NCBI GenBank assembly: GCA_027487735.1
Contig: JAIYDA010000066.1
Coordinates: 1 to 64,000, forward strand
DNA: 64,000 nucleotides
Origin: Planctomycetaceae bacterium
GTDB lineage: Bacteria; Planctomycetota; Phycisphaerae; Phycisphaerales; UBA1924
Direction of reading: 5' to 3'
Below the pieces are notes generated by a model. The model made no database searches and was not told the DNA's origin. It was given only the letters and a program-made list of their open reading frames with translations. Below, in pieces: positions 2,240 to 56,129 of this stretch. The translations under genes were made by a program, and so were the position numbers. Every line of letters starts with the position of its first letter. Position 1 is the first letter of the stretch.

Positions 2240-3985
2240 ATGAAGATCCGTACAAAGCTGGCATTGGCATTCTCCGCGTGCGTCCTCATGACCGGCACCG
2301 TCGGCTACTTTGGTTACTCGGGTCTCAACGAGACTCGCGAGTCACTCAAAGAGATCGGCGAGGTCCGCGTGCCCAGCCTCGTTGGGCTTGCCGACATCAT
2401 GACGGGCCAGCAGGTGGTCCGAGCCAACACCGGCTTGCTTGTAAACGCCGAGACGCCGCCCGCGAACCGCGATGCCCTCTACGCGAGCATCGAGAAGGGC
2501 TATGAAGAGATCAAGATCGGCTGGGACCTCTACGCGCCGCTGCCCCAAACGCCTGAAGAGGCAAAGGCGTGGGAGCAGTTTGTACCCATCTTTGAGAGCT
2601 GGCAGAAGGATGCGCAAGCACTCACGGCTCAGCTCAAAGAGTGGCAAGAGCTGAAGGCAAACAACGCTCCCGCAGAGCAGGTTGCCCAGGCCCACGCTCA
2701 AGGCAAGGAGATGTTCTCGGCTCTCGGAACGCATGACAACAGCTCTCGCAAGCTGCTCGATGAGATCTGGCAAATCAACGTCGATGTCTCGAACAGCTCG
2801 CTCGCCGAGGGCTATGCCGATGCCCACGCCAGCGTCACCCTCTTGCTCGCTGGGGTTGGGCTGGCCATCGCCGTCAGCTTCGCCTTTGCGACATGGATGT
2901 TCGTCCTCTTCAGCCGCAAGGTTGGCGCGTTCACCAGCAAGTGCGACGAGATCGCCAAGGGCGACCTCACCCAGCGCGTGCCGCAGGATGGAAGCGACGA
3001 GTTTGCCACGCTGGGCACGAGCTTCAACGGCCTCGTATCGAACGTGCAGCAAATGATCACGCAGATCAGCAGCACCAGCTCGCAGGTTGCCGCCGCCGCC
3101 ACGCAGATCGCCGCCAGCGCCGAAGAGATGAACACCACCCTGCGCACGCAGGAGCAGGAAGCCCAGCAGGTGTCGGCGGCAGTCGCCGAGATGACGGCAA
3201 GCATCGGCGAGGTCGCGGGCAAGGCGGGCGATGCGGCAGCTGCCGCCAAGCAGAGCGGTGCTCGCGCCACGCAAGGCAGCGAGGTCGTGGAGCGCACCGT
3301 GAGCGAGGTGCGGACCATCAGCGAAGATGTGCAGAACGCCGCGACGAGCGTGAAGGAGCTTGCGAGCAAGGCGGAGGCCATCGGGCAAGTCATCAGCGTC
3401 ATCAACGACATCGCCGACCAGACCAACCTGCTGGCACTCAACGCCGCGATCGAAGCCGCCCGCGCGGGCGAGCATGGTCGCGGGTTCGCGGTGGTAGCCG
3501 ACGAAGTCCGCAAGCTTGCAGAGCGGACACAGACCGCGACGGCAGAAGTCGCCAAGAGCGTCCGCGAGATTCAGAGCGGCACGGGCAACGCCGTGAATCG
3601 CATCGAGTCGTGCACCGGGCGCGCTCAGCACGGCGTCGAGCTCGCGGGCTCGGCAGGAACCGCGCTAGGTGAGATTACCGATGGTTCAAGGGCTCTCGAC
3701 ACGGCTGTCAACGCCATCGCCGCGAGCGCGAAGGAGCAGGCGAGCGCGAGCGATCAGGTTGCACGCAGCATCGAGCGCATCAACGCCGGTGCGCAAGAGA
3801 GCACGCAAGCAGCAGGGCAGGCAGCGCAAGCCGCGAGCAGCCTGTCATCGCAAGCCGAGGAACTCCGCCGCCTCGTGGGTCAGTTCCGCGTCGATGGCAA
3901 CACATCGGGCCAGGCCGAAGCAGGCACCAAAGCTCCCCGCGTGCCGAAGTACAAGCGGATGATGGCGGAAGCGCAGGCGAAGTAA
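2240..3985 (+). CDS. methyl-accepting chemotaxis protein
   Basis: A 581-residue transmembrane chemoreceptor that would signal to a CheW/CheA array. The order is TM1 (about 7-28), a periplasmic four-helix-bundle sensor (about 30-190), TM2 (about 196-222), HAMP (about 223-275) and a long cytoplasmic coiled coil. The signalling tip carries the hallmark sequences [18 protein letters not shown] and [18 protein letters not shown]. An in-frame ATG exists at 2057, but the residues it adds are polar and unlike a receptor N-terminus. The ATG at 2240 gives a standard [11 protein letters not shown] start. No che genes are near, so this is an orphan receptor. A strong terminator follows the stop by about 60 bases. 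Confidence 0.93.
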
Positions 3986-4103: not shown

Positions 4104-5546
4104 ATGCGCACGCTCGTCTGGTTTCGCTCCGACCTCCGCACGATCGACAATGCCGCGCTCAGCCTCGCTACGCGGCAGAGCACGCGGGGCGTGGTGGGTG
4201 TGTTCATCATCTCGCCCGGCGAATGGCGGGCCCACGACGTTGCGCCGGTGAAGCTCGACCTGATGCTGCGCTCCCTCGCGGTGCTGCGAACCAGCCTGGA
4301 GAAGCTGCGCATTCCCCTGCTGGTTCGGCGTGCCGAGACCGTGGGCGAGATTCCGTCCCTCCTCACCGCGCTCTGCGTCAAGCACGAGTGCGATGCGCTC
4401 ACCTTCAACAAGGAGTACGAGGTCAACGAATCTCGGCGCGATGCCCGCGTGCTCGCGGCGTGCAAGGCGGCGGGCGTCGTCACGCACGCCTGCACCGACC
4501 AGAGCATCATCGAGCCGGGCGAGGTGCGCACGGGCGAGGGCAGGTTCTTCACGGTCTACTCGCCCTTCAAGAGGGCGGCGTACAAGTTCATCCAGGCGCA
4601 CGACAGCTTGCGGGCCCACCCTGCGCCCAAGGCCCAGACATCGCTCGTCTGCAAGAGCGACGACGTGCCCACCGCCATCGAAGGCTGGCACAGCGACATC
4701 GACCCTGCCCTTTGGCCCGCGGGCGAGCAAGAGGCCCAGCGCACACTCGAGCAGTTCATTCAGCATCGAAGTCGCAGCTACAAGGTCGACCGCGACTTCC
4801 CCGCGTTGCCCGGCACCAGCGCCCTCAGCCCGCACCTGGCGATCGGCACGACCTCACCCCGCCAATGTGTGCTCGCGGCCTACCAGGCAAACGCCGATGC
4901 GAAGGGGAGCCCGCTCGACAGCGGCAACGAGGGGCTCGCGCAATGGATCAGTGAGGTGCTGTGGCGTGAGTTTTACATCCACATCCTCGTGGGCTATCCC
5001 CGCGTTTGCATGCACCGCGCGTTCCAGCTGCCGACCGAGGCTATCCGTTGGAACGACAACCCCCAGCACTTCGAAGCCTGGTGCCAGGGAAAGACCGGGG
5101 TGCCCATCGTCGACGCGGGCATGCGGCAACTGCGGCAAACCGGGTGGATGCACAACCGCCTACGGATGGTGACGGCGATGTATTTGACCAAAAATCTCTT
5201 CATTGACTGGAAACTTGGTGAAAAATGGTTTATGCAGCATTTGGTGGACGGCTTCCTCGCCAGCAACAACGGCGGCTGGCAGTGGAGCGCGAGCACGGGC
5301 ACCGATGCTGCCCCCTACTTCCGCATCATGAACCCCGTCTCGCAGAGCCAGCGATTCGACCCGAAGGGCGATTTTCTGAGGCAGTTTGTGCCAGAACTCG
5401 CGGGATTGCAAGGGGAAGCGATCCACGAGCCGTGGGAGCTGCCCGGATTGCTCCGCAGCCGCCTCCAATACCCTGAGCCGCTGGTGGACCTCTCCAAGAC
5501 GCGGCAGGCAGCGATCGATCGATTTGCGGCAATCAAAAAGCCATGA
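4104..5546 (+). CDS. phrB: deoxyribodipyrimidine photo-lyase (CPD photolyase, class I)
   Basis: A light-driven FAD enzyme that splits cyclobutane pyrimidine dimers. Its 480 residues match the usual length. The N-terminus (LVWFRSDLRTIDNAAL) is the Rossmann-like antenna domain, about 1-130. The C-terminal helical FAD domain has VDAGMRQLRQTGWMHNRLRM and GGWQWSASTGTDAAPYFRI, which are diagnostic of CPD class I photolyases and include the dimer-binding and electron-transfer Trp residues. ATG 4104 is directly before the conserved first strand. The stop overlaps an ATG (5543) of the next frame. Pairing UV repair with a carotenoid desaturase 10 kb away suggests a light-exposed organism. Confidence 0.95.
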   Translation: MRTLVWFRSDLRTIDNAALSLATRQSTRGVVGVFIISPGEWRAHDVAPVKLDLMLRSLAVLRTSLEKLRIPLLVRRAETVGEIPSLLTALCVKHECDALTFNKEYEVNESRRDARVLAACKAAGVVTHACTDQSIIEPGEVRTGEGRFFTVYSPFKRAAYKFIQAHDSLRAHPAPKAQTSLVCKSDDVPTAIEGWHSDIDPALWPAGEQEAQRTLEQFIQHRSRSYKVDRDFPALPGTSALSPHLAIGTTSPRQCVLAAYQANADAKGSPLDSGNEGLAQWISEVLWREFYIHILVGYPRVCMHRAFQLPTEAIRWNDNPQHFEAWCQGKTGVPIVDAGMRQLRQTGWMHNRLRMVTAMYLTKNLFIDWKLGEKWFMQHLVDGFLASNNGGWQWSASTGTDAAPYFRIMNPVSQSQRFDPKGDFLRQFVPELAGLQGEAIHEPWELPGLLRSRLQYPEPLVDLSKTRQAAIDRFAAIKKP

Positions 5547-5704
5547 GATCACATGTCCCTCATTGTGCTGATTGCATGAGACAATTGCTGTTGCTAGCAG
5601 GCAACCTGACGATCTATGGAATCCCCGGCCCTATCATGACCACGGGGAAAGGCCCCCCTCTTCACCTTTCAATTCTGACAGTGCTCGCCTTGCACGAAAT
5701 CGCC

Positions 5705-6373
5705 ATGCAGCCCCCCCCCACGTTCAAACCAAAGTCCCACCTTGGGCCGAGCGACTTTGCTCCGGTGCTCGAAATGCCCAGGTTCTGCGTTCTCGCACGC
5801 GATACCTCCATGCGGCTTTTGTGGTGCAACGAGCAGTACGCGACCATCTTGAATGCGACCCAGGAGAGGCTGAAGGGCACGCACCTTCGCGAGAACATGG
5901 AGCCAGTTGCCGCCGACGAGCGGCAGGCGAGCCATGAGATCGTGATGACCACGGAAATCCCCAGGCAGTTCAGCGAGCTTCGCCACGGGTGGCGATGGAT
6001 CACGCGGGCTTGGCCCCTCGAACGAGCGGCATTCGGTGCCAATGGCGTGATTGTCGCGCTCTTCCCCTCTTCGGCTCCGCTCGCCGAGGACGCACCGTTC
6101 TGCGCATTGCCAGACTTTGGCGACCTCGCGATTCTCAGTCGCCGCGAGCTGGATGTGCTCTATCACCTCGCGCGGGGCCTCAACGGCCCGGAGATCGCCG
6201 AGCACCTGCATCGCTCGGAGCACACCGTGCGCGACCACATCAAGAGCATTCACGGCAAGCTCCGCGTGCACCATCGCGGCGCGCTCGTGCGGCTGGCGAT
6301 TGAGCGGGGCCTGCAGGGCTTTACGCCCCACCAGTGGGCCACGATCATCAAGAACCACCGCGTGACCGACTGA
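5705..6373 (+). CDS. LuxR-family transcriptional regulator with PAS-like N-terminal domain
   Basis: The C-terminal 65 residues form a GerE/LuxR helix-turn-helix: LSRRELDVLYHLARGLNGPEIAEHL, then HTVRDHIKSIHGKLRVHHR. The N-terminal half (about residues 20-120) has a PAS-like pattern, FCVLARDTSMRLLWCNEQYA followed by GTHLRENM, so it may sense a small ligand or redox signal. I prefer ATG 5705 (222 aa). The same frame is open from ATG 5543, which overlaps the photolyase stop, but the added 54 residues look like non-coding sequence with lower GC. It lies directly downstream of the photolyase, which suggests but does not show light- or damage-linked regulation. No receiver domain is present. Confidence 0.85.
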   Translation: MQPPPTFKPKSHLGPSDFAPVLEMPRFCVLARDTSMRLLWCNEQYATILNATQERLKGTHLRENMEPVAADERQASHEIVMTTEIPRQFSELRHGWRWITRAWPLERAAFGANGVIVALFPSSAPLAEDAPFCALPDFGDLAILSRRELDVLYHLARGLNGPEIAEHLHRSEHTVRDHIKSIHGKLRVHHRGALVRLAIERGLQGFTPHQWATIIKNHRVTD

Positions 6374-12935: not shown

Positions 12936-13070
12936 CGCGCGCATGCATGATGCGGTCGTGCCGATGGGTCGCTGGCTAGCATCTTGCGAGGGGCAGCGTG
13001 CGCCCGCGCAGGGTTGTCGCGGCACCGCGTTGCCTGCGACGCACCGATGTCCCGGAGAGGACCTCTGCCC

Positions 13071-14099
13071 ATGACGCTGCTCTATTCCGGTTTTCGTAAC
13101 CTGTCCTCGCTCACCGCGAGCACCTGCCTCGCTGCGCTCATCATCGCGGGGTGCCAGCGCACCTCAACCCGCGATGCAAGCTTGGACCCGACCGCAGCCG
13201 CGCCCACGCCCCCACCATCGCTCGCCGCGCCCGCACGCGAGGCTCTCGTGCCCCCATCGCCCAACGACAACAAACCAGCTGAGTTTCCTGGGCTGCATCA
13301 GGTCGTGGCATATACCCCGGGCTTCTACTCCGGTGCGGCCCCAGAGGGCGAGGCAGCGTTTGCAAGCCTCGCGGAGCTGGGCGTCCGCACCATGATCAGC
13401 GTCGATGGTGCCAAGCCCGATGTCGCCCTCGCCCAGCGGCATGGTCTGCGATACATCCATCTGCCCATCGGCTACAACGGCTTCGACGAGCAACGCCGCC
13501 GCCAACTCGCTCGCGCGACCAGCGACGCGCTCGCGGCAGGCGGAGTCTACTTGCATTGCCACCACGGCAAGCATCGCAGTGCTGGGGCCGTGGGCACAAC
13601 AGCCGTCAGCCTGGGCCTTGCGAGCAACGACGCAATGCTCGCCCGCATGAAAGTGAGCCAGTGCGCAGAGGGCTACAAGGGCCTGTGGGCACGCACGCGC
13701 GAGGCGGACGTCCTGAGCCCCGCGCAGCTCGCGGCGGTGGATGCGAACTTCCCAAGCGTGTCGCCACCGGGCAGCTTCATCGAGAGCATGGTGAGCATCG
13801 ACGCTGCACTCGAGCACCTGGGCCATATCCAGAAAGCAGGCTGGAAGACACCCGCCGACCACCCGGACCTTGTCCCCGCTGCCGAGGCTGGCATCGCGGC
13901 GGACATTCTGCGCCTGCTTGCGGACAAAGCCAGCGCTCGCAAGCAGGACGAGTTTGCGGCCCTGATGCGTGCCAATGCGGATGCCGCACAGGCACTCGAG
14001 GACGCCCTCGTCGCGGGCAGCGCCGCACCAGCGCTCGACGCCCAGCTCGCGATCGTCGCGCGAAGCTGCAAGGATTGCCACGTGAAGTATCGCGATTGA
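13071..14099 (+). CDS. lipoprotein fusing a Cys-X5-Arg phosphatase-like domain to a C-terminal cytochrome c'-like CXXCH motif
   Basis: A 342-residue protein, with GGAGAGG ahead of ATG 13071. The N-terminus is a lipoprotein signal (LIIAGC, acceptor Cys about residue 23) followed by a Pro/Ala linker. Residues about 70-185 look like a dual-specificity-phosphatase fold: FYSGAAPEGEAAFASLAELG and GVRTMISVDGAKPD. A signature loop HCHHGKHRSAG follows with Cys163 and Arg169 in CX5R spacing. The extreme C-terminus reads SCKDCHVKYRD (C333, C336, H337), the haem-attachment motif and position of cytochrome c'/c556. The preceding helices (about 235-330) fit a four-helix bundle. If exported, it would join phosphate-ester or sulfur chemistry to a haem. 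No substrate can be assigned. Confidence 0.75.
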   Translation: MTLLYSGFRNLSSLTASTCLAALIIAGCQRTSTRDASLDPTAAAPTPPPSLAAPAREALVPPSPNDNKPAEFPGLHQVVAYTPGFYSGAAPEGEAAFASLAELGVRTMISVDGAKPDVALAQRHGLRYIHLPIGYNGFDEQRRRQLARATSDALAAGGVYLHCHHGKHRSAGAVGTTAVSLGLASNDAMLARMKVSQCAEGYKGLWARTREADVLSPAQLAAVDANFPSVSPPGSFIESMVSIDAALEHLGHIQKAGWKTPADHPDLVPAAEAGIAADILRLLADKASARKQDEFAALMRANADAAQALEDALVAGSAAPALDAQLAIVARSCKDCHVKYRD

Positions 14100-46491: not shown

Positions 46492-47194
46492 CTCGCCCTC
46501 GGATAGGGCAATCGCCCTGGTTCGGGCCGCCTGGGCCTCAATCCCACACGCAAACCGAAACGCAAACCCAGAAAGTTGGCACCTGAGCCCGGGAACCTCC
46601 GGACGGTTTCCGCCGAATCGAAAGGCACGTGCGCAAGCTATTGCACGGGTGGCGACGTTGCCACAAGGCACAGAGCGGGCGACCCAGCCGCCGCAACGCT
46701 CCGCCCAGGGAGCAAACCGGCCCCAAAGCCACACGGCGCGCGCGCACGGCGGCGCGAAACCACACCCGCACAACCGAGCGCACACGCTGGCAAGAGCACC
46801 CAAGCCCCAACCCTTATGCCACCCAACAAACCCCTTGCCGAATCGCAAATGCCAGTGGACATTTGCCCCTTGGGTCCGGTACCCTGCGAGGCTGGGCAGG
46901 CTTCGCTTGCCACGGCGTGCGTCCAACTGTGCGCGCGCTGCGGTCTCGCAAAGCCATGAGTGCCCGAGGAGCGGGGGCGACGGAGAGCGAGTGACGGTCG
47001 GTGGAAAGGTGTCGGGGATGAGGAGCGCTCGTGCGGCATGCGTCAGGATGACGAAGCCGGGCGCAGTGAGGGACGGACACATGGAGCGTGCGGGCAGCGT
47101 GCCGGGTGTTGTGTGACACCCTCAATCGCAGCCAGCAGCGAGCAGGCACAAGACCGAGGCGCTTTGGAAGTCAGTGCAGGTTGTGGAGACCAGT
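46492..47194. other. long leader region upstream of the giant secreted protein
   Basis: About 700 bases with no convincing gene on either strand; the short open frames look like random GC-rich translation. A 6-bp stem GGGTGT/ACACCC occurs at about 47106-47123, 70 bases before the next start. No tRNA, RNase P, tmRNA or SRP signature was found. The region presumably holds the promoter and a long 5' leader of the following gene. Confidence 0.5.
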
Positions 47195-50100
47195 ATGCAG
47201 AGCAAGGACTTGCGTTCGATCCTTTCGCGTGGTGCATCCTTCGTGCGGAGCACGAGCCCCCGCCAATCGCGCTCGCTGCAACTCGCATCGCGAGTCGGTC
47301 GTGCCTTGGGTGTCTCGCGCTTCGGCACCGAGCTTGAGCGCCTGGAAGAGCGCAAGCTGCTCGACGGCAGCTTCGACAACCCGCTCCTGCTCCCCGCTCC
47401 GAACGGGCAGGGCGTCATCGTGCAAGCGGGCGACATCACGCCCGCCACGCCCACGACCAACAACGACACATACCGCTTCACGTCGCCCACCACGGGCTTC
47501 ATCTCGGTGCTCGCCGACACGGCGAACCAGAACCCCGTGAGCAACCTGAACACCCAGGTGCAGGTCTTCAACAACGCCCGCCAGCTCATCGCGAGCGGCA
47601 CGACCAACGGCGTGCTGACCAGCGGCGCAACGCGCGACGGCTGGGCGGGCTTTGTCGCCACCGCAGGCGAGCAGTACTTCCTCGTCGTGAGCAGCGAGGG
47701 CCTCGCGCCAGGCAGCTACAGCCTGCGCGTCCGCACCGCCAACCAGACCTTCTCCATGGGGGGCGAGCAGCCCGACGAGCTGGGCGTGGGTCGCGAGATC
47801 GGCTCGCCCGCGCCCGACTTGGGTGCGTTCCCACCCGTGCTGCCGCAGGCAATCCTCGGGCAGCTGGGCGGCACGGGCGTGATCGCCAACCGCGAGCGGC
47901 AGGACGAGATTCTGTATCGCTGGACCGTGCCCGCGGGCAGCGCGTACGACAGCCTCACGACCATCAACGCGCAGTCGACGGTCACCAACGTGCAGCGTCG
48001 CCTCGACACGCGTCTGGACATCTACAACGCGCAGGGCCAGCTCGTCGCGAGCGACAGCGACACGGGCCGCATCAACGACGCGTTCGTTGCGCTGCGCACC
48101 CGCCCGGGCCAGCAGTACTTCATCCGCGTGCGTTCGGACGAGATACTGAACAACAACGTCGAGCTCGCAACGGGCACGTTCTTCCTCGTGGTCGATGCCA
48201 GCGCCCAGAACCTGCCGATCGACGACATGACCCGCCGCGGCACCGACGCTGGCTCCTTCCTGGGCTTTGCTGCTCCATCGGTTGCGCCCAACCCCCCCGC
48301 GCCGAACCCTGTCTTCCAGACCAACGCTTACAGCTTTGTGTCGCAGGGCTCGGGCCTTGCGATCATCGTGGCGCGGCCTCGTGGCAACGCCCCCGTCAGC
48401 GACCCCGCGCTGCGTCTGTACGACGAGGCTGGTGCTCTGATCGACTTCCGCGACAACTCGGTGGGCCTTGCCCCGCAGTTGAGCGTGAACCTCGAGGGTG
48501 GCAAGCGGTACTTCGTGATTGTCGACGGCTTTGCGTCGCAGAACCAGACGCTGTACAGCCTGTTCATCGAGGCCAACCACACCTTCCAGACGGGCGTGCT
48601 GGATGACCACATCAACACCCCCAGCGGCGTCGTGAACGCCGACCTGCGCCGCCAGGCAAATCTCGCGACAGCCCTGCCCTGGGACGGCCCGGCGTACGCG
48701 ACGATCGAAGCGCGGGACGCCGCCCTTGCCGGCACGGGCACGCTGGTGCCCGCACTCGACGCGCTCCAGGCTGGCTTCCGCATCGAGCGTGACCGCGGCT
48801 TGCGGTACATCGCCACGGGCGAAGGCCGCATCGAGGCAGGTGCGGACAACGACCTGTTCACGTTCACCGCTCCTGCGGACATGCTGAACGTGCACACGGG
48901 CAATAACGACGACGCGGGGACCGCGCTCTTCGTCGGCGGCTCGTTTGACGTTGGCAACCCCAACAGCACGTTCGACGTCTTCTCGCCCGGACTCGTGACC
49001 TTCGACGCGGGCGACTACTGGCCTGTGGGCCCGCAATTCGCGACCCAGCAGGTCGACTGGGGCTTTGCCGACAACCCGCTGACGCCCGGCCTTAACGGCG
49101 TGCGGGTGCACGCCCTCGAGGCCTTCAGCATGAACCTGGGCGATGGGCTGCGCAGCTATCTCTTCGTGGGTGGCGACTTCCGCCTCACGCTGCCCGCAGG
49201 AAACGGACAGCCCGTCGTGATGGACAACTTCGCGGTCTGGGCATTCAACCCCGCCGCGAACGCTCGCCGGTATGAGTGGCAGCAGTTCGGCGGAGCCGAT
49301 GGCCCGGTGTTTGCGTTCCAGCAGTGGGAACCTGAAGTCGCTGGCGGCGGACAGCCCGTGAACGAGCTCTACATTGGCGGCGACTATCAGAACATCTTTA
49401 CTGTGGGTGCGGGTGGCGGCGTCGCTGCCAACAGCCTCGCGCTCATCGATGAAGACGGCGGGTTCAGCGCCGTGGGCAACGGCGTGAACGGTGCGGTTCG
49501 GGCGCTCGAGGTGTATGAGCCCGTGGCCCTGGTCGTGCCGCCCGGCGGCGGTGCGCCGCAGCCGCAGACGCAGGAAGAGCGGCTGTTCATCGGCGGCAGC
49601 TTCACGAACCTTGGCCCGCGTGGCACACCCGCGCAGGGCCAGTTCACGGGCCTGGTTTCCATGCTGCCAAACTTCACGTTTGAGCGCACTGGCAACGGGC
49701 CGACGAACGTGCCTGCCGTCAACGGCACAGTCTTTGCGCTGCAGCGGCACACGCCCGCCGCAGCGACCGCAGCGATCGACGCGCGCCTCATCGTGGGTGG
49801 TGCGTTCACGGCGATGGACGGCATTCCGATCGACAATCTGGGCGTGTTCTGGAACTCGCTCGAACTCGCCGAAGAGTTCGCGGGGCAGGGCCTCAATGGC
49901 CCGGTGAGCGCACTGACGGTGTGGGATCTGCCCAACATCAACAACATTCCCGATACCGACGCTGGGTTCACGCCCAAGATCGTGATCGGTGGCGACTTTA
50001 CGAGCAACGGCGTCGAGAACCTGATCTTCGGCGATCTCGACGAGACGAGCGAGAGCGATTTCTTCGCTCCCGTGTCGTGGCTGGGCAGCGATGCGCCGGT

Positions 50101-53100
50101 GCGGTCGCTGACGACCTTGGTCGATGCGCAGGAGCCTGGCGTGCACGATGAGCAGCTCATCAGCGGCTCGCCCCAGGAAGTGCTGTACATCGGCGGCGAG
50201 TTCACGGAGATGACGTTCCAGGGGGCGTTTGGCCCCGTGACGATTGATGCGCTGGGCGTGGTGCAGCTTTCGGCATTCAACACGGGTGGTGCCGACTTCT
50301 TTGCGTTCACGCAGCCCGATGGGGGCGTGTCGAACCGCGCGGGCAACAACGCGGCGGTGGGCGTGTTCGCGCTGGGCGCGTACGACGATGGCAACGCCTT
50401 CCGCTGGGACAGGCACGACCGCCCGCGCACGCGCGTCGCGATGACCATCAACCCCGCGTTCGGATCGTTCATCAACGCGCGTGTCCGCGTGTATGACTCG
50501 AACTTCAACATCGTGTACAGCCTGCAACGCACGGGGTCGGACACGATCGCACTCCCCAACCCCGACCCGGCAGGCTCGATTGACTACTCGCTCTCGCCTG
50601 GCGGCACGCAGATCGATCAGCAGTTCGAGGGCTTTGAGGTGTGGGGTGGCGAGACGTACTACGTCGAGGTTTCGAACCTTGTCGGAAACCAGGACGCGGG
50701 TGCACAGCCCAGCGGCGCGACGGGTCGGTACACCATCTCGGTGATCGTGGACGCTGGCCCGAAGGACATCGACGGCAACGGCTCGCGTGAGGACGTGAAT
50801 CAGACGAGCTCGAGCGAGATCGCCAACGAGGGCCGGCCCATTCAGGCCCAGCAGGTTGTGACCACGCTCGCCACGGGCGATGCCGTCGCGACGCGCAACA
50901 CGGCGGCGGGCTTCCCCTGGCCCGGCAACGACGTGCAGGCGATGCGCATCAACCCCAGCACCGGGCTGTCGTACAGCAAGCGCGGCGACGAGGGGTTGAT
51001 CGACACGATCGACGACACCGACCTGTACTTCTTCCGCGCGGAGGAGACGGGCTTTGTCGAGCTTCGCGTGCAGACTGTTGGGTTCATCGACCAGTACGCC
51101 GAGATCTACGGCGGCGCGCCGACGGTGGAGGCGACCAAGCAGGTTTCGAGCCGCTTGAACGCCGCGATGCGCGTCTTCAACAACGACTTGGAGCAGATCG
51201 CGTTCGTCGACGATGTGACGACGGTCGGCGGTGTGCCGACGCAGTACGTGGGCGTGCTGAACGGCGCGGCAGCTTTCGCAGAGTTCCGACGCGAGGACCC
51301 GCGCGTGGTGGTGCCTGTGGTCGCTGGTCAGGTGTACTTCTTCCAGGTGGAGAGCGGGCAGCGCTGGGTGGATGGCACGCTGCCTCTGCCCCCGGATGCG
51401 ACCGACCCGAACAACCCGCAGCGTCGCGTGGCGGCGCCCGAGCGAGAGGTCGACTGGCGCGACGCGACGGGCGGCTACCGCATCTATGTCAATCAGGTCG
51501 GTCAGCTCGCGAGCGACTTCGAGAATGGCGTCTTCAAGAAGGACGACTACCCGGATGTGCCTGGCCAAGGCACTGTCGTGCCGTTCGATGCGCAGGCTCG
51601 CGCAAGCTTTAGTGGCGTTGTCGACGACACGCCCACCAAGCCGAGCGATGTGGACATCACGCAGTTGCTGCTGCCCACAAGCGGTCAGTACGACATCACG
51701 ATTCGCGTGACGAGCGGCGACCTCGTGGTTGGTGCTGCGTTGTTCGAGCTCAACGGTCAGAACTTTGCCAACATCACCGCGGCGGGCTCGGGTGTCTATC
51801 GCGCCACGTTCAACGCGGCCGCGGGTGATCTGCTGCAGCTGGTGATCGGCGGCCTTGGAACGACCGAGGGCTCGTACAGCGTGAGCATTACGGGCGTGCC
51901 TGTGACCGACGATCACGCGAACCTGAACAAGTGGGTCAACGCGACGACGCTCATCCCGGCGGACTTCCGCGGGCGCATCGAGGGCGCAGGCTCGATCGAG
52001 TCGCTCTACGACACCGACGTGTTCAAGTTCGACTTCGAGGCCTTCCAGCGTGCGACGGTGACGGTGCGGTCGCTCTCGCCCACGCTCGTTCCGCGTGTCA
52101 CGGTCTATGAGATGTCCGAGACGTCGACGGGCGAGGTGATTCTGCTCCGTATCGGCACGGGCGTTGGCAGCCGCAACGCGCAGGGGCTGGTGCAGCCTGC
52201 GGTCGCGCTGGCATCGCTCCAGCCCGAGCGCATCGTGGAGCAACCCAACCCTGCTGATAACCGCTCGTATCCCTTCTACTACGTGGTGGTTGAGGGTGCG
52301 AACCAGCGGCAGGACTTTGGCTCGTATGAGCTTGAGGTCGCGTATGTGGCGACCGACGACCACCCGGATGGCGACACGAACAACGACAACGTGTTTGACA
52401 CGGGCGAGTATGCCGACGCGACGGAAATCGAGCTTGATGCCTTCGAGGGCACGGCGGTGCAGGGCGGCACGCTGGAGCGCGTGGGCGACTCGGACCTCTT
52501 CAAGTTCACGGCTTCGGGCACTGGGCAGGCGACGATCACGCTGAATCGCAACGCAAGCAACGTGCGTGCGCGGCTGAGCGTGCTGGACCAGAACGCGGCG
52601 GTGCTCGCAACATCGAGCATGGCCGACAACGGCGTGACGACGCTGACGCTGAACTTCAACGTGACGCGTGGTCAGGAGCTGTTCCTGGTTGTGGATTCGA
52701 TCGCGCCGAACGCGAACACGACGCGGACGGGTGCCTACACCCTGTCGTTTGTCGCGCCGGTGGGAGACGACCACCCGAACGCAACGGAGTGGAACATCGC
52801 AACGCCCATCACGCTGAGCCCCTCGACGGGCAGCGGCGGCATTGGCGAAGCGACGGTGGGCGCGGTGGGCAACCCCCGTATCTCGCCCGATGCAGACACC
52901 GATCTGTTCAGCTTCTCGACGATTCTTGCGGGCAATCAAACGATCACGGTCACGCCCGTGTCGTCGCTGCTGGGCGATGTCGCGCTGCGGATGCAGATCT
53001 TCATCTCGACGGACCTCACGACGCCCATCGGCACGGTGGATGCGACGAGCATCAACACGCCGCTGACGTTTACGGTGAATGGCGCGCCGGTGGGCACGAC

Positions 53101-55078
53101 GTACTTCATCCTGCTGTCGCCACTCACCGGGGTGACGGGCGGCACGGCCCGCGGCGAGTATGCCATCAGCGTGGTGGGCCCGCGGCCTGCGGACCCGGTG
53201 GACCCGACCGACCCGTCGGAAGTGGACTTTAACAACCCCACGCGGATTCTGCTGGGTGAGCGCACGGGCCAGGGCAGCAGCGTGGGCAACGTGCTGAATG
53301 GTCAGACCAGCGAGATCAACCCCGCGAACGACCGCGACCTCTACAGCTTCGTCGCGGGCGGCACCGGGCGTGCGTTCGTGCGTGTGTGGCTGCCCCAGGG
53401 TTCGCTGCTCGATGCGGCGATCACGGTGTTCCGTCGCAATGAGAACGGAACGCGGACGCAGGTTGCGTTTGATGCCGATGGCATCTCGGGCAGCACGGCG
53501 TATGCGACGTTTGGCGCACGGGCGGGCGAGACGTACCTCGTGCTCGTGGATGGCCTGGGCGACGCGACTGGGTCGTACGTCGTCGAGGTGCAGTCGGCGA
53601 CGCAGATCAATCGCCTTGTGTACCCCGAGGGCTTCACGAGCGACTCGGTGTTTGAGTATGTGCCCATCGTGAACCCCAACCCCTTCCCGATTGCGTACAC
53701 GGTGCGCCTGCGGTATGAGGCGGGCGTCTTTGAGACGGTGTTCGCCGAGCGGACGATCGCGGCGAACGCACGCGATGGCGTGGCGATCAACCAGGGCACG
53801 CAGCGCGAGGCTGGCGTGGTGGCGGGCGTTGGGTATTCGATCCTGATCGACTGGACGGTGCCCGAGACGAACCCGATCACCGGGCTGGCGATTGACCCTG
53901 CGAGCGTGCAGCCGCTGGGCGCGACGCTGAGCCACTATGACTTTGGCAGCAGCACGGGCGATGCGTTTACGAGCACGGTGAGCCCGACGTGGACGTTTGC
54001 CCGCGTCGAGCGCGATCCGGGCGCGGTGCTGGACTTCTTGCTGTACTACAACCCGCAGAGCTACCCCGTGGAGACGACGCTGCGTGCGTTCTTCGGCGAT
54101 GGGACGAGCATCACGCTCGAGCCTCGCGTCGTCGAGGGCGGGCGGCGCGGCGGGTTCAGCATCAACGACCTGCAGCAGCTTGGTCGCGGCGTGTTTGGCG
54201 TGACGCTGACGGCGGTGCCACAACCAACGGTGGCGGCCTCGCTGCTCTTCGCCGAGCCGTTCGAGGGCATCGTGGCGAGCCTGACGCACTACAGCATCTC
54301 GAGCACGAACACGAATGCGTTCGCGGTGCTGGGCGATGCGGCTGGCGGGGCGCGTGCTGGTGCGGTGAACCGCTTCCAGCAGGGCTCGGGCATCAGCAGC
54401 GAGATCACGTTCTTTAACCCCACGGGCACGAACGCGACGGTGACGCTGACGGGCGCGTATCAGCGTGCGATCCTGCCTGAGTTCAGCCGGACGCTGGACG
54501 TGGGCCCGGGCCGCACGGTTCGGCTCACTGGGGCACAACTGGGCCTGCTGAGCAACCAGCCCGTGGGCCTGCGCTACACCTCGACGAACAACGTTGCGGT
54601 GGTGTCGCAGACGATCACGCTGGGCGATGCGGATGCGTCGACGCAGATCACGGCGGCGGGCACGCGGTTCTTGTTTGGCGATGCGTACATCAACGCGAAC
54701 ACCGCGGGTCGCAACTTCTTTGAGACGCTGAGCTTCTACAACCCCACGAACGTGACCAACAGCGTGTCGGTCAACCTGTTCTTCTTCAACCGCGAGAATC
54801 GGCCTGAGCTGGGGAACGCCAACCCCGCGCGGCGGACGATCACCATCAACCTGCCGGCACGCGGCTTTGGCGAGCTGAAGCTGCATGAGGCGGCGGAGGT
54901 CATCAACAATCGCGGCGCGGGCAACAGCCCGGACATCTGGTTCGGCATCGAGACTGTGGCGGCGCAGCCCTTCACGGTGACGATGACGCACTACGACCTG
55001 GTGCTGGGTGGCGGCTGGGGCGCGGTGGGCGTGCCGGTTGGGCTGACGACGCCTCTCAATCAGATCACGTTCAACTAA
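47195..55078 (+). CDS. giant secreted modular protein with PPC repeats and GG-x-F propeller-like region
   Basis: A 2627-residue protein. ATG 47195 has GGAG seven bases upstream (GTG 47174 is weaker). Residues about 48-58 (LERLEERKLLDG) match the LEPR-xLL motif found at the N-terminus of large exported planctomycete proteins. Residues about 60-575 hold several pre-peptidase C-terminal (PPC) beta domains (YFLVVSSEGLAPGSYSL type). Residues about 575-1025 have seven (L/I)-x-x-GG-x-(F/Y) motifs, suggesting a seven-blade propeller. Residues about 1025-2140 return to PPC units (DTDLYFF, DTDVFKF, DSDLFKF, DTDLFSF, DRDLYSF). The C-terminal 480 residues contain four NP-type Ig-like repeats. No catalytic domain was recognised. 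It is probably a cell-surface or matrix protein. Confidence 0.88.
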   Translation: MQSKDLRSILSRGASFVRSTSPRQSRSLQLASRVGRALGVSRFGTELERLEERKLLDGSFDNPLLLPAPNGQGVIVQAGDITPATPTTNNDTYRFTSPTTGFISVLADTANQNPVSNLNTQVQVFNNARQLIASGTTNGVLTSGATRDGWAGFVATAGEQYFLVVSSEGLAPGSYSLRVRTANQTFSMGGEQPDELGVGREIGSPAPDLGAFPPVLPQAILGQLGGTGVIANRERQDEILYRWTVPAGSAYDSLTTINAQSTVTNVQRRLDTRLDIYNAQGQLVASDSDTGRINDAFVALRTRPGQQYFIRVRSDEILNNNVELATGTFFLVVDASAQNLPIDDMTRRGTDAGSFLGFAAPSVAPNPPAPNPVFQTNAYSFVSQGSGLAIIVARPRGNAPVSDPALRLYDEAGALIDFRDNSVGLAPQLSVNLEGGKRYFVIVDGFASQNQTLYSLFIEANHTFQTGVLDDHINTPSGVVNADLRRQANLATALPWDGPAYATIEARDAALAGTGTLVPALDALQAGFRIERDRGLRYIATGEGRIEAGADNDLFTFTAPADMLNVHTGNNDDAGTALFVGGSFDVGNPNSTFDVFSPGLVTFDAGDYWPVGPQFATQQVDWGFADNPLTPGLNGVRVHALEAFSMNLGDGLRSYLFVGGDFRLTLPAGNGQPVVMDNFAVWAFNPAANARRYEWQQFGGADGPVFAFQQWEPEVAGGGQPVNELYIGGDYQNIFTVGAGGGVAANSLALIDEDGGFSAVGNGVNGAVRALEVYEPVALVVPPGGGAPQPQTQEERLFIGGSFTNLGPRGTPAQGQFTGLVSMLPNFTFERTGNGPTNVPAVNGTVFALQRHTPAAATAAIDARLIVGGAFTAMDGIPIDNLGVFWNSLELAEEFAGQGLNGPVSALTVWDLPNINNIPDTDAGFTPKIVIGGDFTSNGVENLIFGDLDETSESDFFAPVSWLGSDAPVRSLTTLVDAQEPGVHDEQLISGSPQEVLYIGGEFTEMTFQGAFGPVTIDALGVVQLSAFNTGGADFFAFTQPDGGVSNRAGNNAAVGVFALGAYDDGNAFRWDRHDRPRTRVAMTINPAFGSFINARVRVYDSNFNIVYSLQRTGSDTIALPNPDPAGSIDYSLSPGGTQIDQQFEGFEVWGGETYYVEVSNLVGNQDAGAQPSGATGRYTISVIVDAGPKDIDGNGSREDVNQTSSSEIANEGRPIQAQQVVTTLATGDAVATRNTAAGFPWPGNDVQAMRINPSTGLSYSKRGDEGLIDTIDDTDLYFFRAEETGFVELRVQTVGFIDQYAEIYGGAPTVEATKQVSSRLNAAMRVFNNDLEQIAFVDDVTTVGGVPTQYVGVLNGAAAFAEFRREDPRVVVPVVAGQVYFFQVESGQRWVDGTLPLPPDATDPNNPQRRVAAPEREVDWRDATGGYRIYVNQVGQLASDFENGVFKKDDYPDVPGQGTVVPFDAQARASFSGVVDDTPTKPSDVDITQLLLPTSGQYDITIRVTSGDLVVGAALFELNGQNFANITAAGSGVYRATFNAAAGDLLQLVIGGLGTTEGSYSVSITGVPVTDDHANLNKWVNATTLIPADFRGRIEGAGSIESLYDTDVFKFDFEAFQRATVTVRSLSPTLVPRVTVYEMSETSTGEVILLRIGTGVGSRNAQGLVQPAVALASLQPERIVEQPNPADNRSYPFYYVVVEGANQRQDFGSYELEVAYVATDDHPDGDTNNDNVFDTGEYADATEIELDAFEGTAVQGGTLERVGDSDLFKFTASGTGQATITLNRNASNVRARLSVLDQNAAVLATSSMADNGVTTLTLNFNVTRGQELFLVVDSIAPNANTTRTGAYTLSFVAPVGDDHPNATEWNIATPITLSPSTGSGGIGEATVGAVGNPRISPDADTDLFSFSTILAGNQTITVTPVSSLLGDVALRMQIFISTDLTTPIGTVDATSINTPLTFTVNGAPVGTTYFILLSPLTGVTGGTARGEYAISVVGPRPADPVDPTDPSEVDFNNPTRILLGERTGQGSSVGNVLNGQTSEINPANDRDLYSFVAGGTGRAFVRVWLPQGSLLDAAITVFRRNENGTRTQVAFDADGISGSTAYATFGARAGETYLVLVDGLGDATGSYVVEVQSATQINRLVYPEGFTSDSVFEYVPIVNPNPFPIAYTVRLRYEAGVFETVFAERTIAANARDGVAINQGTQREAGVVAGVGYSILIDWTVPETNPITGLAIDPASVQPLGATLSHYDFGSSTGDAFTSTVSPTWTFARVERDPGAVLDFLLYYNPQSYPVETTLRAFFGDGTSITLEPRVVEGGRRGGFSINDLQQLGRGVFGVTLTAVPQPTVAASLLFAEPFEGIVASLTHYSISSTNTNAFAVLGDAAGGARAGAVNRFQQGSGISSEITFFNPTGTNATVTLTGAYQRAILPEFSRTLDVGPGRTVRLTGAQLGLLSNQPVGLRYTSTNNVAVVSQTITLGDADASTQITAAGTRFLFGDAYINANTAGRNFFETLSFYNPTNVTNSVSVNLFFFNRENRPELGNANPARRTITINLPARGFGELKLHEAAEVINNRGAGNSPDIWFGIETVAAQPFTVTMTHYDLVLGGGWGAVGVPVGLTTPLNQITFN

Positions 55079-55379
55079 AGTGTGAACTAAAGTGTGATTG
55101 GTTGTGTCGTGACTGGCTGAGTTGGGGCCGGCTGAGTTGGGACTGGCTGGCAACGAAACCGGCCGTCGTTTTTCGGAATCTTGACACCCGCTGGCTGCGA
55201 TGCTGGCGGGTGTTTTTCTTTGTTTGTCTGGTGTTGTTTGGTCTTGTGCGTCTGGTCTTGTTTGTCTGGTCTTGTTGGTTTGGGCGCACGTGGTCGCACG
55301 CATGCGCGGCGATGCGGGCGGGCTGGGCGCTTGCCAGCTGGGCGTTTGCGGGCCTGCGAAGTTGCTATCCTGTGGCCCT
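55079..55379 (+). other. repeat-rich intergenic region with terminator after the giant gene
   Basis: No gene is seen. Short direct repeats include GTGTGAACTAAAGTGTGA at the 5' end, two GGCTGAGTTGGG units at about 55115-55140, and a TG-rich stretch at 55228-55290 with several GTCTGGTCTTGT copies. Confidence 0.6.
55184..55217 (+). terminator. rho-independent terminator of the giant gene
   Basis: An 8-bp stem (ACACCCGC at 55184 with GCGGGTGT at 55206) and a 14-base loop are followed by TTTTTCTTTG. It lies about 105 bases after the stop. Confidence 0.8.
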
Positions 55380-56129
55380 ATGAGCATCATCATTCTGCAG
55401 CACAGCACGCACGGACACGCGGGGCGCCTGGGGGCCACGCTTCGCGATCACGGGTTTGACGTGACGACATGCCGGCCCGACTTGCATGGGGTGGGCGGCA
55501 AGCCCGGCGCGCTGGGCGTGCCGAAGGACCTGGACAATGTGCACGGGCTGGTGGTGCTCGGGGGCCCGCAGAACGTGACGGACATCGCGAAGCACGCGTG
55601 GATGCAGCACGAGGCGGAGCTCATTAAGGCGGCGCACGCGAAGGAGCTGCCTGTGGTGGGCATCTGCCTTGGGTGCCAGCTCATTGGTCATGCCCTGGGG
55701 GGCGAGGTGGCCCCGCGCGAGAAGCCCGCGGTGGGGTTCTATCCCATCAGCGCGACCACGCCCGGGCAGACAGAGACGATCCTCGCGGGCATCACGTGGA
55801 ACAACCAGACGTACTTCTCTTGCGGGCAGGAGGTGAAGACGCTGCCTGCGGGGGCGACGCTGCTGCAGACAAGCAAGCACGCAAAGCACGCGGCCTTCAA
55901 GGTCGGCGTGCGGACGTTTGCCTTCCAATATCACTTTGAGTGCGACCAGCCCCTGATGGAGGCGATTAGCGCGCACAGCAAGGCGGAGATGGGGCAGGCG
56001 GGCGTGACCGAGGGCGAACTGAAGGTGCAGACGGACCAGCACTACGCGAGCTACGCGCGGCTTGCGGATCGGCTGTGCGTGAACATCGCGACGTACTGCT
56101 TTCCGGTGACGAGGAAGCTCAGCGCATGA
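55380..56129 (+). CDS. class I glutamine amidotransferase
   Basis: A 249-residue GATase1 domain protein. The nucleophile Cys is in VVGICLGCQLIGHALGGEV; the partner His and Glu are in FAFQYHFECDQPL. The N-terminus MSIIILQHSTHGHAGRLG is typical of GMP-synthase-like single-domain amidotransferases (YfeJ-like), whose acceptor is usually unknown. No synthetase domain is attached. It overlaps the following HhH-GPD gene by ATGA, so they are translationally coupled. The upstream open frame to 55200 lies inside the terminator region and is rejected. Confidence 0.9.
   Translation: MSIIILQHSTHGHAGRLGATLRDHGFDVTTCRPDLHGVGGKPGALGVPKDLDNVHGLVVLGGPQNVTDIAKHAWMQHEAELIKAAHAKELPVVGICLGCQLIGHALGGEVAPREKPAVGFYPISATTPGQTETILAGITWNNQTYFSCGQEVKTLPAGATLLQTSKHAKHAAFKVGVRTFAFQYHFECDQPLMEAISAHSKAEMGQAGVTEGELKVQTDQHYASYARLADRLCVNIATYCFPVTRKLSA

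Follow-up and report, generated by a model that had tools for sequence, protein, structure and literature searches.

Why a phosphatase-like active-site loop and a haem-attachment motif should lie in one exported protein is the question raised by a gene at positions 13071–14099 (+ strand) of the window, the 64,000-nucleotide stretch of planctomycete DNA analysed here. The frame is open throughout, from an ATG at 13071 to the stop at 14099, with an alternative in-frame start (TTG) at 12984, and encodes a lipoprotein-like chain of 342 amino acids for which 83 full-length relatives are available. Existing annotation names the protein at best as a "dual specificity protein phosphatase" or a "hypothetical protein" (two records), missing the haem half. 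Cys-based phosphatases can be switched by oxidation of the catalytic cysteine, and to our knowledge no Cys-based phosphatase carries its own haem. The preliminary description of the locus knew of no protein with both motifs, and in keeping with this no description of a fusion between a dual specificity phosphatase (DSP) and a cytochrome was found in the literature searched, with most subscription journals outside the search. The conserved architecture is apparently undescribed, its parts being two known families.

Organization of the gene and its product

The protein begins with a predicted signal peptide ending in the lipobox IAGC, in which Cys28 is predicted to be lipidated (13071–13154), followed by a low-complexity Ala/Pro linker that is unconserved in the alignment (residues 29–72, 13155–13286). 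The DSP/PTP-fold domain covers residues 73–212 approximately (13287–13706) and includes the PTP loop HCHHGKHRS (residues 162–170, 13554–13580) with Arg169 and with Cys163 as predicted nucleophile. The class II cytochrome c domain, comprising four helices, takes up residues 229–342 (13755–14096) and holds the haem-attachment motif CKDCH (residues 333–337, 14067–14081) within a C-terminal end reading SCKDCHVKYRD. The lipobox, the Cys and Arg of HCHHGKHR and the terminal SCKDCHVKYR picked out in the preliminary description are all present in the translated frame. Applying a strict pattern, the lipobox was detected in 45 of the 83 relatives, with most of the remainder having an apparent N-terminal signal sequence, so that what stays constant is export, not a lipid anchor. 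The source genome carries a cytochrome c assembly gene, making haem attachment outside the cytoplasmic membrane possible.

Distribution and conservation

Family matches were found in 212 of 400 genomes of the order, in 81 of 298 genomes sampled from the class (a figure that counts in single-domain DSP matches) and in 183 of 392 genomes from the phylum, about 129 of the listed matches covering both halves. All named relatives belong to the Planctomycetota, mostly to the Phycisphaerae, the one labelled Kuenenia (L014) being also a planctomycete. One relative, WP_148599161.1, comes from the culturable species Aquisphaera giovannonii. A scan of genome contigs and plasmids, which detects close relatives only, gave no relatives beyond the Planctomycetota. 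Plasmid copies were seen in Aquisphaera giovannonii (L129) and in Planctomyces sp. SH-PL62 (L130, 4896–5858 and 6924–10852), the latter lying 2 kb away from genes for cytochrome c oxidase and for a DUF3365 protein, a context that does not recur elsewhere.

When 83 non-redundant full-length relatives were read letter by letter, Pro91, His130, Pro132, Tyr135, Cys163, Gly166, Arg169, Leu205, Met240, Cys333, Cys336 and His337 were invariant (83/83), with His162 (82), His168 (81), Asp266 (74) and Trp258 (71) near-invariant and Arg341 present in 81, the remaining two having gaps. The retention of both motifs in 83 distinct relatives from many genera and families rules out a chance juxtaposition or an assembly artefact. 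Taken with the motifs themselves and the predicted folds, this retention makes it very probable that, as first proposed, a CX5R domain of the DSP fold and a C-terminal class II cytochrome c domain are united in one exported chain.

None of the 83 full-length relatives keeps the phosphatase half without CXXCH. Apparent losses of CXXCH in C-terminally short matches disappeared on full reading (G817, G655, G895, G928 and G037), arose from matches running off contig ends (G831, G766 and G813) or represented split genes (G633 and G757). The only close phosphatase halves without CXXCH came from three genomes (L092, L093 and L105) in which the DSP and the cytochrome are separate adjacent genes, DSP first, with the CXXCH gene directly downstream.

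Split genes and other architectures

In L092 the split DSP (4910–5563) is followed by the cytochrome at 5650–6078, while in L093 and L105 the pair lies on the reverse strand, with the GTG start of the L093 cytochrome at 5419 touching the DSP stop. The Pfam model Cytochrom_C_2 (PF01322) supported the split cytochromes of L092 (5.7e-5) and L093 (0.0016), and with a weak match in L105 (0.06) the assignment there rests on the terminal CVDCHTLFK. The L105 DSP (2982–3935, − strand) has the loop HCHHGKHRG and no clear signal peptide, adjoins the lipoprotein with this ending and has an additional C-terminal half weakly resembling a second PTP-like or Rossmann-like domain.

Of twenty single-domain DSP regions retrieved in the same manner, most had ordinary HCxxGxDRTG loops and no C-terminal CXXCH neighbour. 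These ordinary DSPs form a different group, the tree gathering every fused sequence into one clade (100/90) that excludes the split DSPs and, at a greater distance, the ordinary ones, although the exact placements are unsure because of long branches. Divergence of the two halves was correlated (mirror r = 0.85), and the sequences are consistent with a history in which neighbouring genes were joined. The haem half was seen alone once, as a lipoprotein (L045). A second, small CXXCH protein of the source genome (CNACH; L126, 1191–1730, genome contig C45), a 180-residue frame with a weak cytochrome c' match, is apparently a stand-alone cytochrome.

In one lineage a glutathione peroxidase lies N-terminal to the DSP-cytochrome in the same chain (L008 and L067; PF00255, 1.9e-39), linking the family to peroxide or thiol redox. 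This three-domain frame of 496 residues (L067, 5530–7017, + strand; also L008, 4371–5858, and L042) has the loop HCHHGQHR. Elsewhere the DSP-cytochrome unit lies in frame, with no stop between, behind a sodium/calcium exchanger (L046, 6482–8473, − strand) and behind a sodium-dependent nucleoside transporter (L055, 4415–6772, + strand), both of which are possibly transporter fusions with an envelope-side enzyme.

Beyond the split pairs no conserved operon or substrate gene was found, the gene being solitary in about 60 loci, and with no conserved neighbours no substrate can be named. Elsewhere in the window a 2755-aa open frame (47171–55438, − strand), with one nearly as long on the opposite strand, may encode a giant protein.

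The phosphatase-fold domain

AlphaFold2 modelling of residues 62–342, using 12 relatives, gave a DSP domain and then four helices (pLDDT 89.1; model m85b5c4ea7f72), the pTM of 0.72 giving moderate confidence only in the relative placement of the DSP and haem domains. The DSP half matched the Pseudomonas aeruginosa phosphatase TpbA (PA3885; 4r0s) by Foldseek (2.2e-6) and by VIA alignment (Z 16.9, 155 residues, 3.0 Å, 24% identity), and DUSP23 (2img) by VIA (Z 17.6), with 3gxg/3gxh also among its structural neighbours. On residues 83–175 the DSP-PTPase Pfam models matched below cut-off (Tc-R-P 0.0031), and a PDB sequence search with the phosphatase half recovered TpbA weakly (2m3v and 4r0s, 0.0034–0.0089). 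Two hallmarks of the DSP/PTP superfamily are thereby present, namely the PTP fold and an HCX5R loop whose Cys and Arg never vary.

TpbA is also an exported (periplasmic) DSP-fold protein, and its loop HCKHGNNR has the same spacing as HCHHGKHR with HCxHGxxR in common, but it has no haem domain and its loop ends in NRT in place of HR followed by S, G or A. In classical DSPs Ser or Thr follows the loop Arg, while in this family Arg169 is followed by S in 56, G in 22 and A in 5 of the 83 relatives (Gly/Ala in 27). The general acid of TpbA, Asp105, aligns with Asn136 in the segment HLPIGYNGFDE (residues 130–140, 13458–13490), the equivalent of the general-acid loop, and this position is N in 38 relatives, D in 27 and S in 10, with other residues in the rest; at Asp139, aligned with TpbA Asp108, 36 of the 83 have D. 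As the family does not conserve the usual general-acid Asp, phosphatase activity stands as a prediction, drawn from a CX5R spacing identical to that of TpbA. In TpbA itself the D105A substitution lowered catalytic efficiency by only 53% (PMC4409338).

The weak conservation of the general acid bears on the main rival explanation, according to which the DSP-fold half would be a thiol or sulfur redox enzyme, with Cys163 taking either a thiol or a sulfane-sulfur compound as substrate and the haem accepting or donating electrons as in a fused dehydrogenase-cytochrome. The loss of Ser/Thr after the Arg in about a third of relatives, the three conserved His of the loop and the natural glutathione peroxidase fusion would all fit such an enzyme, while its loop follows the CX5R spacing seen in TpbA and other phosphatases and sulfur-oxidation genes did not recur near the gene in the loci examined. 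A precedent exists in the DUF442 (BLH_phosphatase) domain of Blh, a PTP-fold domain proven to be a sulfurtransferase, which likewise places this fold in a redox/sulfur role fused to a second redox domain, there the ETHE1 sulfur dioxygenase rather than a cytochrome (PMC5823870). Although its representative 3gxg, along with 3gxh, is among the structural neighbours, BLH_phosphatase (PF04273) was not listed for the query and reached sub-threshold matches in some relatives only (0.0008; 0.00066), and a redox enzyme of this kind is regarded as unlikely. The preliminary description had left the choice between a phosphatase-like and a rhodanese-like enzyme; the rhodanese-like reading is the less likely of the two, given a loop with CX5R spaced as in TpbA, although the DSP half may yet transfer sulfur.

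The haem domain

Cytochrom_C_2 (PF01322) matched residues 291–341 of the full protein at its curated cut-off (26.5 bits, 1.4e-5) and the isolated haem domain above it (30.5 bits, 7.7e-7), and was matched by 17 of 17 divergent family members, with hmmsearch likewise giving matches to cytochrome c' (1.2e-6). Folded alone, the haem domain gave a confident model (pLDDT 92.1, pTM 0.85; model m9bb34a113081) with helices at model residues 8–27, 41–61, 65–86 and 91–113. The top VIA ranks were the Kusta0087/Kusta0088 complex (Z 12.7–13.3), cytochrome cb562 (Z about 11.6–12.3) and cytochromes c' (6a3l and 4cx9, Z 11.6–11.9); for helical bundles a Z of 11–13 does not by itself settle the matter, and the PF01322 sequence match agrees with it. 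Foldseek returned no match under 0.001 for the haem domain alone, an unsurprising outcome when a helical bundle is short and lacks its haem, and VIA and Pfam were used instead. The last helices are thus predicted to pack into a four-helix bundle, superposing on c', cb562 and Kusta0087/0088 and bearing CXXCH on its last helix, the combination that characterizes class II cytochromes c and that the preliminary description had anticipated.

Class II cytochromes c (c' and c556) and b562/cb562 have the same four-helix bundle with a C-terminal CXXCH on its last helix, but those known work independently as small carriers or gas binders, whereas here the domain is fused behind an enzyme and has a W-x2-P-x3-PDL loop inserted between helices 1 and 2. 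The best neighbour, the Kusta0087/Kusta0088 complex of the anammox planctomycete Kuenenia stuttgartiensis (6r6m/n/o), aligned over 102 residues at 13–14% identity, lacks a phosphatase domain and has Cys32 (from the entry titles) at the distal position occupied here by Met240 (codon 13788–13790). The superposition pairs residue 6 of the model with 6r6o residue 26, 2bc5 residue 1 and 2ccy residue 10, and an ungapped helix 1 would therefore place model residue 12 (Met240) opposite 6r6o residue 32, 2bc5 Met7 and 2ccy residue 16, which we take to be the distal haem positions (using also the titles of the C32-mutant entries). Met7 is the axial ligand of cytochrome b562. Rhodospirillum molischianum c' carries an unligated Met16 at the distal position, such that a Met there does not prove ligation; a haem with His337/Met240 ligation is nonetheless probable.

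The preliminary description had suggested a redox- or NO-gated enzyme with a c'-type motif; on the c'-type reading, a five-coordinate haem would bind NO (or CO) and so gate the phosphatase. Cytochrome c' is indeed the best sequence match in Pfam, and the closest structural neighbour, Kusta0087/0088, is an unusual NO-binding class II cytochrome, but Met240, invariant in 83 of 83 relatives at the position of the axial Met7 of b562, speaks for a haem with six ligands, to which NO would have no access. The invariant Met240 points to a low-spin haem of the c556/c562 type, acting as a redox relay or gate, in preference to an NO-sensing site, and gating by NO is accordingly improbable.

Proposed function

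The retention of both active-site motifs in all 83 relatives suggests an envelope enzyme wired to redox state. The reading that we favour, with a confidence slightly short of even, is that of a Cys-dependent envelope phosphatase whose own haem links it to redox state. The product would be a single-copy, stand-alone envelope lipoprotein, a DSP-fold Cys-dependent hydrolase, most likely a phosphatase acting through Cys163 and Arg169, that shares one covalent chain with a class II c-type cytochrome, the haem of which is probably ligated by His337 and Met240. The haem, presumably attached outside the cytoplasmic membrane, would trade electrons with the envelope pool of electron carriers or with oxidants, and its redox state would set the activity of the oxidation-sensitive catalytic Cys, possibly through a changed contact between the domains or by keeping the catalytic Cys reduced. 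Redox state would in this way govern the dephosphorylation of an envelope substrate, redox gating by the haem being a reasonable proposal from the architecture. A pseudo-enzyme, whose DSP fold would dock a phosphate or phospho-ligand and so place an ordinary electron-carrier cytochrome on a partner with neither catalysis nor gating, would suit the weakly conserved general acid and the cytochrome half found once alone as a lipoprotein (L045), but is more doubtful still, as mere ligand binding would tolerate C to S or D whereas Cys163 and Arg169 are invariant (83/83).

More broadly, and tentatively, these proteins may constitute a new class of Cys-dependent envelope enzymes that are coupled to haem and occur throughout the Planctomycetota. 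Electrons passing between the covalent c-type haem and the catalytic Cys of the PTP fold would either drive the reaction or switch a phosphatase, giving an envelope redox-to-dephosphorylation signal to which a peroxidase domain would add a peroxide input in one lineage. The fusion marks a planctomycete-wide gene whose haem half annotation misses. Were the phosphatase reading to hold, these bacteria would have a means of translating envelope redox state into altered phosphorylation; alternatively, the family would provide a PTP fold doing redox chemistry outright.
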